Source: a bacterium (lineage in GTDB: Bacteria > UBA9089 > JASEGY01). From it: a stretch of 17,976 bases of DNA. The stretch spans positions 1 through 17,976 of the forward strand of contig JASEGY010000026.1 in the NCBI GenBank assembly GCA_030019105.1. Reading direction: 5' to 3'. This document shows positions 1 to 13,958 of the stretch, piece after piece. The position numbers were made by a program, and so were the translations under genes. Numbering within the stretch: position 1 is the first letter of the stretch; each line of letters starts with the position of its first letter. A model generated the notes under the pieces. It saw only the letters and a program-made list of their open reading frames with translations, was not told the DNA's origin and did not search any database.

Positions 1-462
1 TGGATTACTCCAGAATTCTCGCGGACAACGCAAATGTTGCGGGGTAATAGTATATTCTGCTCTGGTCATTTGAGTGGTTGTAGAACCTACCCTTTTATAT
101 GCCCGGCCAAAGGCCAAATGCGGTCTATTGGAACTTCCTTCTGCGGCAATTACTATTATACCTTTATCTCCCGATTTCTTCACCACTTCAATCTTAGGAT
201 AAAGAACCGGATCAGTATGAGCAGAGATTTTATCAGCTATTTGCTTTATCGTCTCTTTGCCAATTGCTACTTCTTTAATTTTACCCTTATCTTCTACCCC
301 AAAGATCACACATCCCCCATCGGGATTAGTATTAGCAAAGGCACTCAGTGTCTGAATAACTCTGTCTAATTCAGCAATAGACTTCTTGAACTCTATCCGC
401 TGTCCCTCACCAGCTTGCATGGCCTCATATATAAATTTCTCAGTAGATACCTTATTACTCAT
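1..462 (-). CDS. AlbA_2 (Schlafen AlbA_2-like) domain protein, 3' end off window
   Basis: Reading leftward from the ATG at 462 gives 154 open codons with no stop before the window edge, so the gene is partial. The start is preceded by a purine-rich AGGGGGG Shine-Dalgarno (about 472-479). The protein has the typical AlbA_2 order: GEGQRIEFKKS near residue 19, then a segment ending TLSAFANTNPDGG, then VIFGVEDKG, and later AFGRAYKRVGSTT. In this family the EFK(E/K)S and AFANT..GG blocks form a fold proposed to bind nucleic acid, often followed by an ATPase-like or winged-helix C-terminus that would lie outside the window. Such proteins are annotated as putative transcriptional regulators or ATP-dependent helicase-like proteins and are common in accessory regions. 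The domain call is good; the biological role is unknown. Confidence 0.8.
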   Translation of the reverse strand, partial: MSNKVSTEKFIYEAMQAGEGQRIEFKKSIAELDRVIQTLSAFANTNPDGGCVIFGVEDKGKIKEVAIGKETIKQIADKISAHTDPVLYPKIEVVKKSGDKGIIVIAAEGSSNRPHLAFGRAYKRVGSTTTQMTRAEYTITPQHLRCPREFWSNP

Positions 463-2524: not shown

Positions 2525-2612
2525 CGTATAATATGTTTGTAGTGGTCGAGCTTGCTCGACATAGTCTGGCACAGCAGAGCAAGCTCTGCAACTACATAGC
2601 CATACCTCACTT
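2525..2612 (-). repeat. REP/BIME-like double-hairpin repeat, copy A
   Basis: This repeat matches the window's right-end copy (17835-17922) with two mismatches over 88 bp. Read on the minus strand it holds two perfect palindromes, CAGAGCTTGCTCTG and GTCGAGCAAGCTCGAC, in opposed half-units that each begin with GTAG. A 5' GTAG beside a hairpin is the known signature of REP sequences handled by RAYT (IS200-like) transposases. The repeat starts with the TGA of paralogue B and ends about 14 bp before the ATG of paralogue A, so it sits inside the operon. Confidence 0.85.
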
Positions 2613-3167
2613 ATCTTTTTTCCTGATCCATAAAAAGAAGACCAGAAGCGATCCCCAAAAACAGACGGTTAATACCAACCAAAAGATGAAGAACGGATTT
2701 TCAAAGAAGGAAAAGGTCTGACCATTTTGATAGTCAGCCCAGGTGACGGCCACATGGAAGGTTGCTCCCCTGCTGAGGTAGACAATAATCAGGATGAGAA
2801 TTCCTAAACTGCAATAGGACACCCTCAATAGTTTCTCCTTCCCTTTTCTAATCAGGTATCTACCCGACTCTAACCCGAGGAGAGCCGGAATAAGGGCCAT
2901 CGCGACTACACTTATCCCGGAGAGGAGCGCCAGCTTCGGATTATTCCGGATATGATCTGCCTGCTCAAAGAAGTAATTTGTCTCCCATCCAGGCCAGCCT
3001 AAGAAGAAGTAAATGACGATAGGGGTGATAAAGCAGAAGGCAAAGATGATGGTCATCGTTCTCAAGAATAGATGCTTTTCCCTCTTGTCACTTTTTAACA
3101 TATTTCTTCCGGCATCAGCGATCACCTGGCCGGCAATAAGACCTACCGGGACATCAATCAGTAACAT
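2607..3167 (-). CDS. unknown integral membrane protein, paralogue B
   Basis: This 186-residue protein is first in the minus-strand operon. Its ATG at 3167 follows GGAGGGATTAAT, and the same 12 bases occur again just upstream (3188-3199). It resembles its neighbour paralogue A: an N-terminal IDVPVGLIAGQVIADAGR amphipathic segment, a first membrane helix, GWPGWETNYFFEQ, two middle helices with an RKGKEKLLRVSY loop, NGQTFSFFENPF, and a last helix ending in a short basic tail (WIRKKDK). There are about four or five membrane segments. No enzymatic motif is visible, and I do not know the family. The stop codon TGA is also the first triplet of an 85-bp repeat shared with the window's right end. A small subunit-like membrane pair acting with a redox enzyme is possible but is only inference. 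Confidence 0.75.
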   Translation of the reverse strand: MLLIDVPVGLIAGQVIADAGRNMLKSDKREKHLFLRTMTIIFAFCFITPIVIYFFLGWPGWETNYFFEQADHIRNNPKLALLSGISVVAMALIPALLGLESGRYLIRKGKEKLLRVSYCSLGILILIIVYLSRGATFHVAVTWADYQNGQTFSFFENPFFIFWLVLTVCFWGSLLVFFLWIRKKDK

Positions 3168-3199: not shown

Positions 3200-3235
3200 G
3201 TATCTTCTTCAAATCTAATGGTAAGACCCAAGGCA

Positions 3236-3327
3236 GGGATCAGGAGTCAGGGGTCAGGATGCAAGGTTAGATGGCGCGTAATGTGACCAACCTTGAACCC
3301 CTGACTCCTGACCCCTGACCCCTGATC
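3236..3327. repeat. palindromic element made of GGGGTCA-type heptamers
   Basis: The left arm consists of four consecutive 7-mers (GGGATCA, GGAGTCA, GGGGTCA, GGATGCA; 3236-3263). The right arm is their complement (TGACTCC, TGACCCC, TGACCCC, TGATCAT; 3302-3329) next to an AAGGTT/AACCTT pair. The result is a long imperfect hairpin about 90 bp across. No target duplication was found. It fills most of the 200-bp gap between the paralogue B gene and the amidase. Confidence 0.75.
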
Positions 3328-3369: not shown

Positions 3370-4065
3370 TCACCCTGAATTCCGAATCTTCAGCACCCCA
3401 CGGACCGGATCCCAACTCAAGTTAGCGTCTTCATCAATCGGGTGCTTCCAGACCTCTTTGCCGTCTTCCATCACCAGGAGTTCACGCTGGGTTGTTTCTT
3501 CTCCGATTTCTTCGAGTAGAGTGCGGGCCTTATCCAGGACGATCTCTGCATAATCAGCTTCTGTTCCCCCGCCAACAACAGCCGCCCCGCGATCATTGGG
3601 CCGCGACTCCTTGTATTTGTGTCCTACGCTGAAACCGATTGTTCCTCCGTGCGGAAAGAAACGTTTGATGCTGTCAGACAAGACCTGGGCGAGTCGCAGT
3701 TGACCGGATTCGCTTTTGATATAGTCGGCGTGCTGCGGGTTGCTGGCGAACAACGGTTCGAGCAATACTGCCGGCATGCAGGTATATTTGATGTTGCCGT
3801 CGCCCCTGCCGTTCCATCCACCGACCAAAATACCATTGTTGCCGCCGACTTCGATGTCGAACTCCCGTCCGATGGCTTGAGCATACCACCCTCCCCAGTT
3901 CTTGCTGGTCTGAGACGCATTACTTCCGACCACAACGACGGAATATCCTGCCGAAGGCGTTGAGGAGCTATTAAAGTGATGCTCCACATAGCCGGCGCAT
4001 TTATCCTCATTCGCCTGCATTTGCCGATGGTAGTAGTCCCCTTTATAGAACTTGACCTGATACAT
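3370..4065 (-). CDS. N-acetylmuramoyl-L-alanine amidase, apparently circularly permuted Amidase_3 fold
   Basis: This 231-residue protein lacks a signal peptide; its ATG at 4065 follows GGGGGGATTAAT. Amidase_3 enzymes cut the MurNAc-L-Ala bond and bind zinc through His, Glu and His, with a catalytic Glu near the C-terminus. All four elements are visible, but out of the usual order. The first half has VEHHFNS (third ligand, H30) and MPAVLLEPLFASNPQHA (catalytic E103). The second half, after KRFFPHGG, has IGFSVGHK (normally N-terminal ligand H149), NDRGAA and GGGTEADYAEIVLDKARTLL (ligand E169 with the first helix). The protein therefore seems to start at the usual second strand and end with the usual first strand and helix. 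A 45-residue beta-like tail (ELLVMEDGKEVWKHP...) follows. The lack of a secretion signal fits a phage-lysin-like origin, which is inference. It stands alone between two repeat elements. Confidence 0.75.
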   Translation of the reverse strand: MYQVKFYKGDYYHRQMQANEDKCAGYVEHHFNSSSTPSAGYSVVVVGSNASQTSKNWGGWYAQAIGREFDIEVGGNNGILVGGWNGRGDGNIKYTCMPAVLLEPLFASNPQHADYIKSESGQLRLAQVLSDSIKRFFPHGGTIGFSVGHKYKESRPNDRGAAVVGGGTEADYAEIVLDKARTLLEEIGEETTQRELLVMEDGKEVWKHPIDEDANLSWDPVRGVLKIRNSG

Positions 4066-4118
4066 TTTATTAATCCCCCCTTTTTATAGTATTCCCCCCC
4101 CCCAACATTAATAACGTA

Positions 4119-4472: not shown

Positions 4473-5750
4473 TTAATGATGATTAAGGCCCTCACATCGC
4501 TTTCTTGCCACTTCCTCATCGTAGGAGAAAAAGCCTTGCCGGCGTTCGCACTCCTCCGGGGTGCTTTGAAAAACATCACCGTCGATACAGCACCAGCCGG
4601 TCCTCGGAGGCTGTTGGCTGCGCTGACATTTCTTTCTTACCGCTCTCTCATCATAGGAAAAGAAGCCCTCCTGTTGTTCGCACTCCTTCAGGGTGCTTTG
4701 AAATACTTCACTGTCTCTGCAACACCAGCCGGTTCTCGAAGGCTGTTGGCAATATTTCTGAGCCTCCTCGTAAGAGATGTAGAACTGACCGCCGCGTTCC
4801 AGACAATCAGAGCTCTTTGCCTGAAAGATCTCACCATCTTGACAGCAATATCCCATTTGGTCAGACTCACATTCCTCTCTTACCGCCTCTTCATCGTAGG
4901 AGAAAAAGCCTCCTGCGTGCTTACACTTCTCCGGGGTGCTTTGAAAAACATCACCGTCACTGCAACACCAGCCGGTCCTCGAAGGCTGTTGGCAATATTT
5001 CTGAGCCTCCTCGTAAGAGATGTAGAACTGTCCGCCACCTTCCAGACAAGCAGACCTCTTGCTTTTAAAAACCTCACCATCTTGACAGCAATATCCCATC
5101 GGGTTAGGCTCAGGTTCTTGTCTCACCGTGCCGTCGCCGTATTTTTCTCGCCAAAGAGGTATTGAACGAAGCTCTTCTCGAGAAAGAGTCCGCACCTCTC
5201 CCACACGGTCCGAAACCCTGACTTGTTCTGAACTCCGAACTACCAATTCCTCCGGTTGCTCTCGTTGCTTTATCTTAATCTTCCCTTTTATAACAGTTAC
5301 CGTTGAGTGTTGCGGGGTAACCTCTATCTGAAAGGTAGTGTTTGGCACTGCACTTAAATGATCAGTCTCAATAATTGTTTCACATCCTCCCTTTGTTTCT
5401 CCAAATACTCGTCCGTAGCCAATAAAGATTTTGATAATGCATTTAGCCTGTTCAAACCACTTACGGAATTCCGGATCTGTATTTTGGTCCAGTTGGATGA
5501 ATCCGCCATCAGGAAAAGATATAATGGCGCTGCTATCCTGACCAGTGCGCACGCTGTCTCCACTGTAGATTTTCATTTTCTTATATGCCTTCTTTTGATT
5601 CACCCAGACATTACTCTTTCCTAACACCCTGAGAGTTCCAATGAAATCTTCGTGACGGGGGGGAATGGAAGCACATCCCCATAATACCATGAGAGATAAC
5701 GCTAACGAAAGAAAGCTGATAAAGGTGAATCTTCGATCAAAGTATGTCAT
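4473..5750 (-). CDS. FecR-domain lipoprotein with five cysteine-rich C-terminal repeats
   Basis: The ATG at 5750 follows AGGAGGAG, giving 425 residues. The N-terminus is a lipoprotein signal: basic start, hydrophobic stretch and VLWGC with the lipidated cysteine at 26. Residues about 35-190 look like a FecR/LysM-free beta domain: a GxxRVxGKxxVW start, YSGDSVRTGQDSSAIISFPDGGFIQLDQNT (63-91), then VPNTTFQIEV and VTVIKGKIKI (135-160). The remainder is five tandem repeats at about 219-253, 260-294, 300-334, 341-375 and 385-419. Each has the pattern G(Y/W)CCxDGxVFxS...C...GFFSYDEE...C, with four cysteines. Two sub-types alternate A-B-A-B-B. Four cysteines per repeat suggest disulphide-stabilised modules outside the cytoplasm; metal binding is also possible. 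The gene starts 17 bp after the stop of the membrane-protein gene, so they form one operon. Confidence 0.8.
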   Translation of the reverse strand: MTYFDRRFTFISFLSLALSLMVLWGCASIPPRHEDFIGTLRVLGKSNVWVNQKKAYKKMKIYSGDSVRTGQDSSAIISFPDGGFIQLDQNTDPEFRKWFEQAKCIIKIFIGYGRVFGETKGGCETIIETDHLSAVPNTTFQIEVTPQHSTVTVIKGKIKIKQREQPEELVVRSSEQVRVSDRVGEVRTLSREELRSIPLWREKYGDGTVRQEPEPNPMGYCCQDGEVFKSKRSACLEGGGQFYISYEEAQKYCQQPSRTGWCCSDGDVFQSTPEKCKHAGGFFSYDEEAVREECESDQMGYCCQDGEIFQAKSSDCLERGGQFYISYEEAQKYCQQPSRTGWCCRDSEVFQSTLKECEQQEGFFSYDERAVRKKCQRSQQPPRTGWCCIDGDVFQSTPEECERRQGFFSYDEEVARKRCEGLNHH

Positions 5751-11355: not shown

Positions 11356-11595
11356 ATGGATACTATCATAAAAGCGATACCTCTTGAAGATTTTAAGATT
11401 GATGTGCTTACTAGTAGTGGCATTTCAGGTGTATTTGATGTAAAACCATACTTAGGTGGTAGCGCTTTCAAGGAGCTTGCTGATAATTCGTATTTTCGCC
11501 TCGTTCGCCCTGCTTATCACGGCATTATGTGGCCAAATGAACAAGATTTTAGCTCCGATACTATCATATGGGATATACAAAATACCCAACAATGA
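11356..11595 (+). CDS. DUF2442 domain protein
   Basis: The ATG at 11356 follows AAAGGAGAG. The 79-residue protein contains SGISGVFDVKPYLGGSAFKELADNSYF and WPNEQDFSSDTIIWD, which match the DUF2442 pattern (G.FDV.PYL...F.L.D..YF..V...W....D...D.L). It is the usual partner of DUF4160 and is likely the antitoxin-like or DNA-associated half of the module. Its stop codon coincides with the first base of the region homologous to hicB (11594), so its last residues (NTQQ) may have been shaped by that junction. Confidence 0.85.
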   Translation: MDTIIKAIPLEDFKIDVLTSSGISGVFDVKPYLGGSAFKELADNSYFRLVRPAYHGIMWPNEQDFSSDTIIWDIQNTQQ

Positions 11596-12047
11596 GCTGG
11601 CATATGATCCTGAAACTCACCAATACGTAGCAGCTTGTCCGGAGTTGGACTTAGCCGTTGCTGGTGATAGAGAAGAGGAAGCTGTGGAAGATTTGGTGGA
11701 GGCAATCAAAGAGTATGCCCAGGATTATTTAGAGCGCCTGGATTTGTTTGCCGGCAACCCCAATCGAGGAGCACATTTACCCTTGATTTTATTAATAGCC
11801 AGTTGTGTTGGTACTCATCCACTACTACTTTGATTATGAAAATCTAATAGCACACAGATAACACGGATACCACGGATTACCACGGATAAAATCAGTATAA
11901 ATCCGTTAAATCCGTGTCATCCGTGTGCTATTAAAAGAGGAGTAACTATTTCCGCTGATCAGGTATTTTTTCTAAATCAAAGTACTAACGGGTGAGCACC
12001 GTTGTGTTTCAAAAGCGGATATTCGGAGGTTGCTCGTATCCCCATAA
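11594..12047 (+). pseudogene. hicB relic: 5'-truncated and split by a MITE
   Basis: Bases 11594-11809 align without gaps to 13468-13683 of the intact hicB. The relic continues at 12009 (CAAAAGCGGATATTCG) to a TAA at 12045-12047. It lacks the first 21 codons and any start codon, and a 191-bp element (11810-12000) interrupts it. Joining the two pieces across one copy of GTTGTGTT restores a single reading frame ending LLIASCVSKADIRRLLVSP, so the MITE arrived in a recognisable coding frame. No hicA follows this copy; the porin gene starts 22 bp later. It is probably inactive. Confidence 0.88.
11802..12008. mobile_element. MITE-like element family 2 (191 bp, 11810-12000) with 8-bp duplication GTTGTGTT
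   Basis: The ends form an imperfect inverted repeat of about 33 bp: GGTACTCATCC...ACTTTGATT at the left, against GGTGCTCACCC...ACTTTGATT read from the right. GTTGTGTT is duplicated at 11802-11809 and 12001-12008. The intact hicB at 13676-13683 has it once, giving an empty site within the window. The core is a palindrome of CACGGAT / ATCCGTG blocks (about 11847-11935) ending in GTGCTATTA, a tail that recurs near 14105. Confidence 0.9.
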
Positions 12048-13370: not shown

Positions 13371-13404
13371 GACAATAGTGGTTGACCAAAAGGAGGTTAT
13401 CATA

Positions 13405-13737
13405 GTGGAAATGATACTTCTTCCCAAATTTCAACCTTCTCAGCCTGTGGCAAAGAAGCTAACATTAGAGCTGGAATATGATCCTGAAACTAACCAATAC
13501 GTGGCAGCCTGCCCGGAGTTGGATTTAGCTACTGCTGGTGATAGAGAAGAGGAAGCTGTTGAAGATTTGGTGGAGGCAATCCAAGAGTATGCCCAGGATT
13601 ATTTAGAGCGACTGGATTTGTTTGCCGGCAGCCCCAATCGAGGAGCACACTTACCCTTAATTTTATTAATAGCCAGTTGTGTTTCAATAGCGGATATTCG
13701 AAAGTTGCTCGTAGCTCCATCGAAGAGGATAAGTTAA
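13405..13737 (+). CDS. hicB: HicB-family antitoxin
   Basis: I choose the GTG at 13405, eight bases after AGGAGG (13391-13396); an ATG at 13411 is two codons further. The 110-residue protein shows the HicB partial RNase H-like fold: LELEYDPETNQYVAACPELDLATAGDREEEAVEDLVEAIQEYAQDYLE (21-68). In the known systems HicB neutralises HicA and represses its own operon. The usual C-terminal DNA-binding domain is not obvious; the tail IADIRKLLVAPSKRIS is short. The stop overlaps the hicA start by one base (TAATG). A truncated near-identical copy lies at 11594-12047. Confidence 0.88.
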   Translation: MEMILLPKFQPSQPVAKKLTLELEYDPETNQYVAACPELDLATAGDREEEAVEDLVEAIQEYAQDYLERLDLFAGSPNRGAHLPLILLIASCVSIADIRKLLVAPSKRIS

Positions 13738-13958
13738 TGGCGACTTATGGAGACTTCCGCAAGGTCTTACAGAAGCTAAACTTTGCTCTGGTTAGATCAA
13801 CTAAACATGAAACATGGGAGAGAATTTGTGAAGATGGTACAATCCTGAGAACGAGAGTAAGTCATCAACACGGAAAGGATGTTCCGAAGCCATTATTTCA
13901 CAGAATGCTCAAGCAGTGCAAATTAACAGAAACAAGATTTCGCGACCTGGGCGGTTAG
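13737..13958 (+). CDS. hicA: HicA-family mRNA interferase toxin
   Basis: HicA toxins are small double-stranded-RNA-binding-fold ribonucleases that cleave mRNA and tmRNA. The 73-residue protein starts at the ATG overlapping the hicB stop, which couples their translation. It contains FRKVLQKLNFALVRSTKHETWERI, with the expected catalytic histidine at H24, and VSHQHGKDVPKPLFHRMLKQCKLT, matching the second half of HicA domains. The order antitoxin-toxin is the less common but known hicB-hicA arrangement. The gene appears complete and likely active. Confidence 0.88.
   Translation: MATYGDFRKVLQKLNFALVRSTKHETWERICEDGTILRTRVSHQHGKDVPKPLFHRMLKQCKLTETRFRDLGG

Follow-up and report, generated by a model that had tools for sequence, protein, structure and literature searches.

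The stretch of 17,976 nucleotides examined from contig JASEGY010000026.1 (assembly GCA_030019105.1, from a bacterium of the GTDB lineage UBA9089; the whole stretch is hereafter called the window) encodes a 231-amino-acid protein on the reverse strand (3370..4065), which is very probably a leaderless, zinc-dependent N-acetylmuramoyl-L-alanine amidase with an Amidase_3 fold, circularly permuted in nature and likely of phage-endolysin origin. Amidase_3 is one of the main families of cell-wall amidases, with functions in division, spore germination and phage lysis. Residue conservation, profile alignment and the predicted fold are the observations that carry this reading, and from them we infer zinc binding, catalysis, the substrate, and phage ancestry together with its direction.

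The gene is an intact open reading frame (ORF) extending from an ATG at 4065-4063 to a stop codon at 3372-3370, with a Shine-Dalgarno-like AGGGGGG (4075..4081, reverse strand) 9 bases ahead of the ATG. The first predicted strand already starts at residue 2, and the protein has no signal peptide. Residues 1-140 (3646..4065) correspond to the canonical chain beginning with strand 2 and running through the last helix, here placed at the N-terminus (VIA-align, model residues 1..140 versus 1jwq 46..179), and hold R14, H30 (codon 3976-3978, in VEHHFNS) and E103 (codon 3757-3759, in MPAVLLEPLFASN). This part closes with a four-residue link, FPHG (137-140), as delimited in the alignment of 207 proteins described below. 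Residues 141-187 (3505..3645) correspond to canonical strand 1 and helix 1, now C-terminal according to rotated hhalign alignment and AlphaFold2, and hold H149 (codon 3619-3621, in FSVGHKYK) and E169 (codon 3559-3561, in GGGTEADYAE). The order along the chain is His, catalytic Glu, His, Glu and departs from the canonical Amidase_3 order of His, Glu, His, catalytic Glu. An earlier interpretation of the DNA made from its letters alone (the sequence-only reading) had proposed the ORF with its strand, coordinates and these four residue numbers, its ribosome site and the lack of a signal peptide, all of which agree with our analysis.

The Pfam Amidase_3 profile (PF01520) matches residues 11-134 only (E 5.1e-11; 43.4 bits versus a cut-off of 27), covering profile positions 56-173 of 174. 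The first third of the profile is thus absent from the N-terminus, where the chain sets in at what corresponds to strand 2. Incomplete coverage of the profile is by itself no proof of permutation: six other proteins match Amidase_3 only from about profile position 51-70 onward, yet they lie in long ORFs (897-1489 codons in the stretches retrieved), have hundreds of residues ahead of the matching part and do not look like the permuted family. All NCBIfam matches of the window protein lie far below the cut-off, PHROGs returned two weak endolysin matches and nothing else, and the PADLOC anti-phage defence models gave no family at E up to 10. A sequence search of solved structures with the single window protein gave nothing significant. 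A profile built from a 50-row alignment (A3) reached 11 distinct amidase sequences among solved structures at E up to 0.01, with all best stretches ending by profile position 144 and segment 141-187 unmatched in native order.

The permutation itself was assessed against a canonical profile of 32 cellular Amidase_3 domains, 30 from other genomes and two from the window's own genome. In native order, hhalign aligned only residues 13-135 (template 59-213, score 84.4), versus a score of 93.6-93.8 over template positions 10-213 when the core was rotated to start at residue 139; a scan of cut points peaked at 135-153. Global alignment of the rotated core placed I143-H149 on the strand-1 GH motif, D158-A161 on DPGA and E169 on the first Glu of KEK, and H149 also fell on the GH motif when the rotated profile was aligned with phage endolysins. 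When the columns of the moved segment were shuffled 400 times, the mean score against the cellular set was 84.5 with a maximum of 93.4, and the real 93.6 was never reached. Ten phage endolysins, all in canonical order as read, gave the best score for the rotated profile, rising from 123.3 in native order to 140.1 (141.4 at the best cut), absolute values that partly reflect how this set was chosen, namely among weak BLAST hits obtained with two permuted proteins. None of 400 shuffles reached the rotated score here (mean 122.7, standard deviation 0.75, maximum 129.8), a comparison of real and shuffled profiles that stays within one phage set. Twenty random subsets of ten cellular domains scored a mean of 84.3 and a maximum of 93.3 with the rotated profile, well below the phage value of 140, a gap weakened by the selection of the phage set by similarity.

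Two confident AlphaFold2 models, one of which represents a 192-residue relative, each form one compact core with the amidase fold (predicted local distance difference test scores of 94.5 and 97.0; predicted template modelling scores, pTM, of 0.80 and 0.92, the latter for the relative). In both models, the stretch from residue 1 to approximately 140 can be superposed on solved amidases, which it covers from about residue 45 almost to their C-terminus. For the model of the window protein and 1jwq, 45 residues remain unmatched at the front of 1jwq and 47 residues (141-187, with a strand at 141-147 and a helix at 169-186) are left over behind in the model; this complementarity of matched and unmatched parts supports a circular permutation. 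Behind the moved segment, residues 188-231 (3373..3504, reverse strand) form an accessory C-terminal tail of four predicted beta strands (194-200, 203-210, 215-219 and 224-228), which is occupied in 198 of the 207 listed proteins and gave no Pfam family above the cut-off. The models also match LigB-type extradiol dioxygenases and Memo in sequence order over nearly the whole core, which could be taken as kinship with these enzymes; SCOP classes LigB as a circularly permuted form of this general fold. The identity to 7txy_E is 3% and 9%, with Z-scores below those of 24 amidase entries, the catalytic motifs are of the amidase type, and Pfam assigns the protein to Amidase_3 (at the E-value given above), with LigB missing from the matches listed up to E 1, a range in which HMMER filters drop most matches above 0.1. 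With no sequence relation found and a different chemistry, such kinship is extremely improbable, and we rejected the LigB structural matches as a sign of it.

The protein has a large number of homologues. Of 1114 candidates in a protein search, 721 had E up to 0.001, and a profile built from nine diverse members identified 750 of 2661 candidates in a second search; the counts below use the 207 distinct proteins listed as the best 120 of each search (206 homologues plus the window's own), the unlisted remainder possibly including canonical amidases. Among the best 120 of the 721, the homologues share 59-68% identity with the query over 98-100% of its length. The motif E-x-H-[FL]-N around H30 is present in all 207 proteins, and an exact VGHKY in 197, C-terminal to the H30 motif every time, with variants such as SIGHKY, VGHKF and VCHKY at the same place in the other ten; the swapped order of segments read from the single gene is thus a feature of every listed member. 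On an alignment of all 207 proteins, R14, E28, H30, N32, E103, D158, E169 and E174 are kept in 207/207 and H149 in 206/207, so that all four proposed zinc and catalytic residues, as they had been picked out beforehand, occur together in 206 proteins. These four residues are also among the 16 invariant columns of an 87-row alignment (A2) and are complete in 48 of the 50 rows of A3, the other two being viral matches that end before the last site. Judged by sequence, these proteins form a real, widespread family with intact predicted active-site residues. An assembly or frameshift artefact that fused two amidase pieces in the wrong order might be considered, as the window stems from a 1053-contig assembly; the other 206 proteins, which come from several sequence sources, show the identical order, as do the isolate-titled loci of Malikia granosa, Malikia spinosa, Desulfosarcina cetonica and Chitinimonas taiwanensis. 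This reduces the probability of such an artefact to practically nil, and artefact, truncation and frameshift were ruled out by these homologues.

Several observations nevertheless weigh against a natural permutation of phage origin, in addition to the way in which the phage set was picked. Segment 141-187 alone matches the cellular profile weakly (P 0.013), near-miss shuffles against the cellular set scored 93.2 (one of the first 60) and 93.4 (one of the later 400), one listed protein (P0023) carries Tyr in place of H149, and no duplicated intermediate was found. Furthermore, some match was present in 203 of 386 genomes around the window's own, and among the matches listed for them only the window's gene matches in full (1-228); none of the starred groups of the family tree contains the window's row. 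The weak match of the segment and the near-miss shuffles, together with a five-residue insert between H149 and the D-x-G-A part, would fit a protein that lost the true strand 1-helix 1 unit and gained an unrelated segment with a coincidental GH..E likeness. We consider this very unlikely, as 0/400 shuffles reach the rotated score with either the cellular or the phage set, D158 and E169 are kept in all listed proteins and H149 in all except one, the pTM of the 192-residue relative is 0.92, and the 45 residues unmatched in 1jwq are complemented by the 47 left over in the model. A natural circular permutation, as the sequence-only reading had put forward, is supported jointly by the rotated profile with its shuffled controls, the two models and the residue conservation.

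The canonical strand 1-helix 1 unit, with the first His and the Glu that bind zinc, would have been relocated to the C-terminal side: the FPHG link would join the former C-terminus to the former N-terminus, and the break in the chain would lie in the loop that connects helix 1 with strand 2. Once folded, the enzyme would be expected to be ordinary, with zinc held by H149, E169 and H30 and E103 acting as general base in the cleavage of the amide between N-acetylmuramic acid (MurNAc) and L-Ala; this zinc site is predicted from conservation, profile alignment and the modelled fold. In the Amidase_3 family, the zinc ligands, the general base and the cleavage of the MurNAc-L-Ala bond are established. 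The conservation of the four residues indicates that the permuted amidase may be functional. The window's own genome also encodes a 787-residue ORF (G000:C122:2059-3975; loci L078 and L079) with two canonical-order Amidase_3 domains in tandem, and duplications of this type can give rise to circular permutants; nothing marks this ORF as an intermediate of the permuted family.

The permuted family is probably related to phage lysis enzymes. An unrooted tree of 14 rotated permuted rows, the ten phage endolysins and the 32 cellular canonical domains (root arbitrary, several long branches) grouped the permuted rows in one clade (Shimodaira-Hasegawa-like approximate likelihood-ratio test, 100), and a single origin therefore suffices. 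Nearest to this clade are five phage endolysins with a Glu two residues before the His (E at H-2), within a phage set picked by similarity to the permuted family. By a common pattern, E at H-2 is present in 205/207 permuted proteins (207/207 on the alignment), 5/10 phage endolysins and 0/32 cellular domains, and LEPxF in 203/207, 4/10 and 0/32, respectively. Both features occur, with LEPxF around the catalytic Glu, in all four endolysins of the Vibrio phages 141O35-1, 1.251.O and pVco-5 and the uncultured phage MedDCM-OCT-S45-C18. Most likely, the permutation would have occurred in or near phage endolysins of this E.HxN / LEPxF type, and the gene would since have become scattered among bacteria. 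The phage derivation that had been raised as a possibility thus gains support from the nearest canonical-order set and from permuted copies on IMG/VR contigs, of which one scan found six loci and the following one 11, with overlap; one contig (L083) looks truly phage by gene content, as read by eye. Annotated phages (50,697 records) gave no match at E 1e-5, and those of the weak matches at E up to 10 that were read are canonical endolysins. A single match was found in 72,556 plasmid records.

A genome scan with exact short peptides, which favours close kin, identified 39 loci, two of which are cut by contig ends (L033 and L040). Their titles are mostly from Gamma- and Betaproteobacteria or deltaproteobacterial groups, with single loci from Mariprofundaceae, Epsilonproteobacteria, Acidobacteria, Armatimonadetes and Bacillota. 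In the family tree, a locus titled Desulfopila (L012, a metagenome-assembled genome) sits with Chromatiaceae-type rows, and Desulfosarcina cetonica appears among Burkholderiales rows with weak support. A genus mate of the window's bacterium among the 386 genomes (G001) gave no match. This pattern of distribution suggests horizontal transfer. In L006 and L029, a contractile tail-sheath gene occurs in the same locus as the permuted amidase, which may hint at a link with contractile injection systems; that of L006 (PHROG 23, E 4.2e-51; L006:3-1625, reverse strand) is located upstream of the amidase.

A true permutant could also have acquired a changed chemistry or role, such as cytosolic peptidoglycan recycling, another amide substrate or a binding function. 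The absence of a signal peptide from the window protein would fit such a role, as would the leaders of other members: in 11 of the 207 proteins the E28 motif is preceded by more than 45 residues, and most of these leaders are rich in Lys and Arg, and several listed members carry Lys/Arg-rich ends rather than a signal peptide. E28 and E174 are invariant in the 207 proteins, yet the 32 aligned cellular domains lack them at the corresponding positions; E28, however, recurs in 5/10 phage endolysins, and the four catalytic-type residues are retained. In one relative (L038), the permuted amidase is fused to Peptidase_S41 and PDZ domains (Pfam) behind an N-terminus that looks leader-like by eye. Furthermore, of 53 loci tested (some overlapping), 11 have a gene for a Germane (GerMN)-domain protein a short way downstream of the amidase and in the same orientation; none was found in the window. 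Three of the products were checked, and all three are Germane proteins by Pfam, two with lipobox-like starts and one with a leader-like start by eye, which points to the envelope. Taken together, a changed chemistry or role is unlikely. GerS activates CwlD. The solved complex 7rag contains, according to its structure listing, the amidase CwlD and the lipoprotein GerS. A single permutation in a phage endolysin might have founded a separate amidase family whose leaderless enzyme was adopted by bacteria and, in one branch, paired with an exported Germane-domain partner or activator as GerS is for CwlD, a scenario that we offer tentatively and hold to be somewhat doubtful. If true, natural permutation would have made a new cellular tool for the cell wall out of a viral lysin. 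Pfam did not bear out an SLH-like end of L034 that had been noted by eye, and in L036 the TPR matches remained below cut-offs; both were discarded.

The permuted protein resembles Amidase_3 / MurNAc-LAA zinc amidases (CwlV, 1jwq; CwlD, 7rag; AmiC, 4bin; Rv3717/Ami1, 4m6i) in its profile over residues 11-134, its fold over residues 1-140 and its zinc and catalytic residue types, as well as in R14, N19 and N32. It differs from them by the C-terminal position of strand 1-helix 1, the five-residue insert after H149, E at H-2 and the additional beta tail. The Amidase_3 family itself is already known, and the permuted order appears to be new; no description of a permuted Amidase_3 was found in the literature searched, most subscription papers and all bioRxiv preprints lying outside the search. 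The NlpC/P60 fold is unrelated to Amidase_3. Circularly permuted NlpC/P60 proteins (YaeF, LRAT-like) provide a precedent for permutation in a superfamily with cell-wall hydrolases, according to a passage of PMC6403190; these families differ in having Cys/His catalytic residues. Passages of PMC6403190, PMC12419801, PMC2096629 and PMC1239909 concern other proteins, and a term search of PMC3482391 gave no occurrence. Because of the permutation, Pfam sees only a partial amidase and many members carry the name 'hypothetical protein'. If the active site of such a natural permutant is intact, the zinc site would be shown to tolerate a changed order of the chain, and the family would represent a natural set of proteins for studies of permutation and folding. 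Given its likeness to phage endolysins, the idea that a bacterial wall enzyme has a viral origin can be put to the test.

The gene's neighbours in the window comprise a FecR-domain protein and a pair of membrane-type proteins without a Pfam match above the cut-off, and Pfam assigned no phage family to the window neighbours. PHROGs gave two matches for five neighbours, both of unknown function and neither to lysis or structural proteins. An all-against-all comparison of ORFs in 46 loci, including the window, revealed no conserved operon; what recurred were shadow ORFs that overlap other frames, members of general families, and local synteny confined to a few loci at a time. An intergenic inverted repeat at 3234-3327 (arms CAGGAGTCAGGGGT / ACCCCTGACTCCTG), which lies downstream of the amidase gene, is possibly a repeat element or a terminator. 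The FecR-domain protein (4473-5750, reverse strand; Pfam E 1.4e-7) has a C-terminal half consisting of a row of mutually similar Cys-rich units of the GWCCxDGxVFQSTxEECE type. The adjacent membrane-type proteins (1903-2610 and 2607-3167, both reverse strand) share a GWPGWE motif, gave no informative PHROG match and look like diverged duplicates. The window also contains two closely similar antitoxin genes (Pfam PHD_like) at 11456-11833 and 13378-13737 on the forward strand, the second of which is followed by a HicA-like gene (13677-13958) scoring just below the Pfam cut-off.
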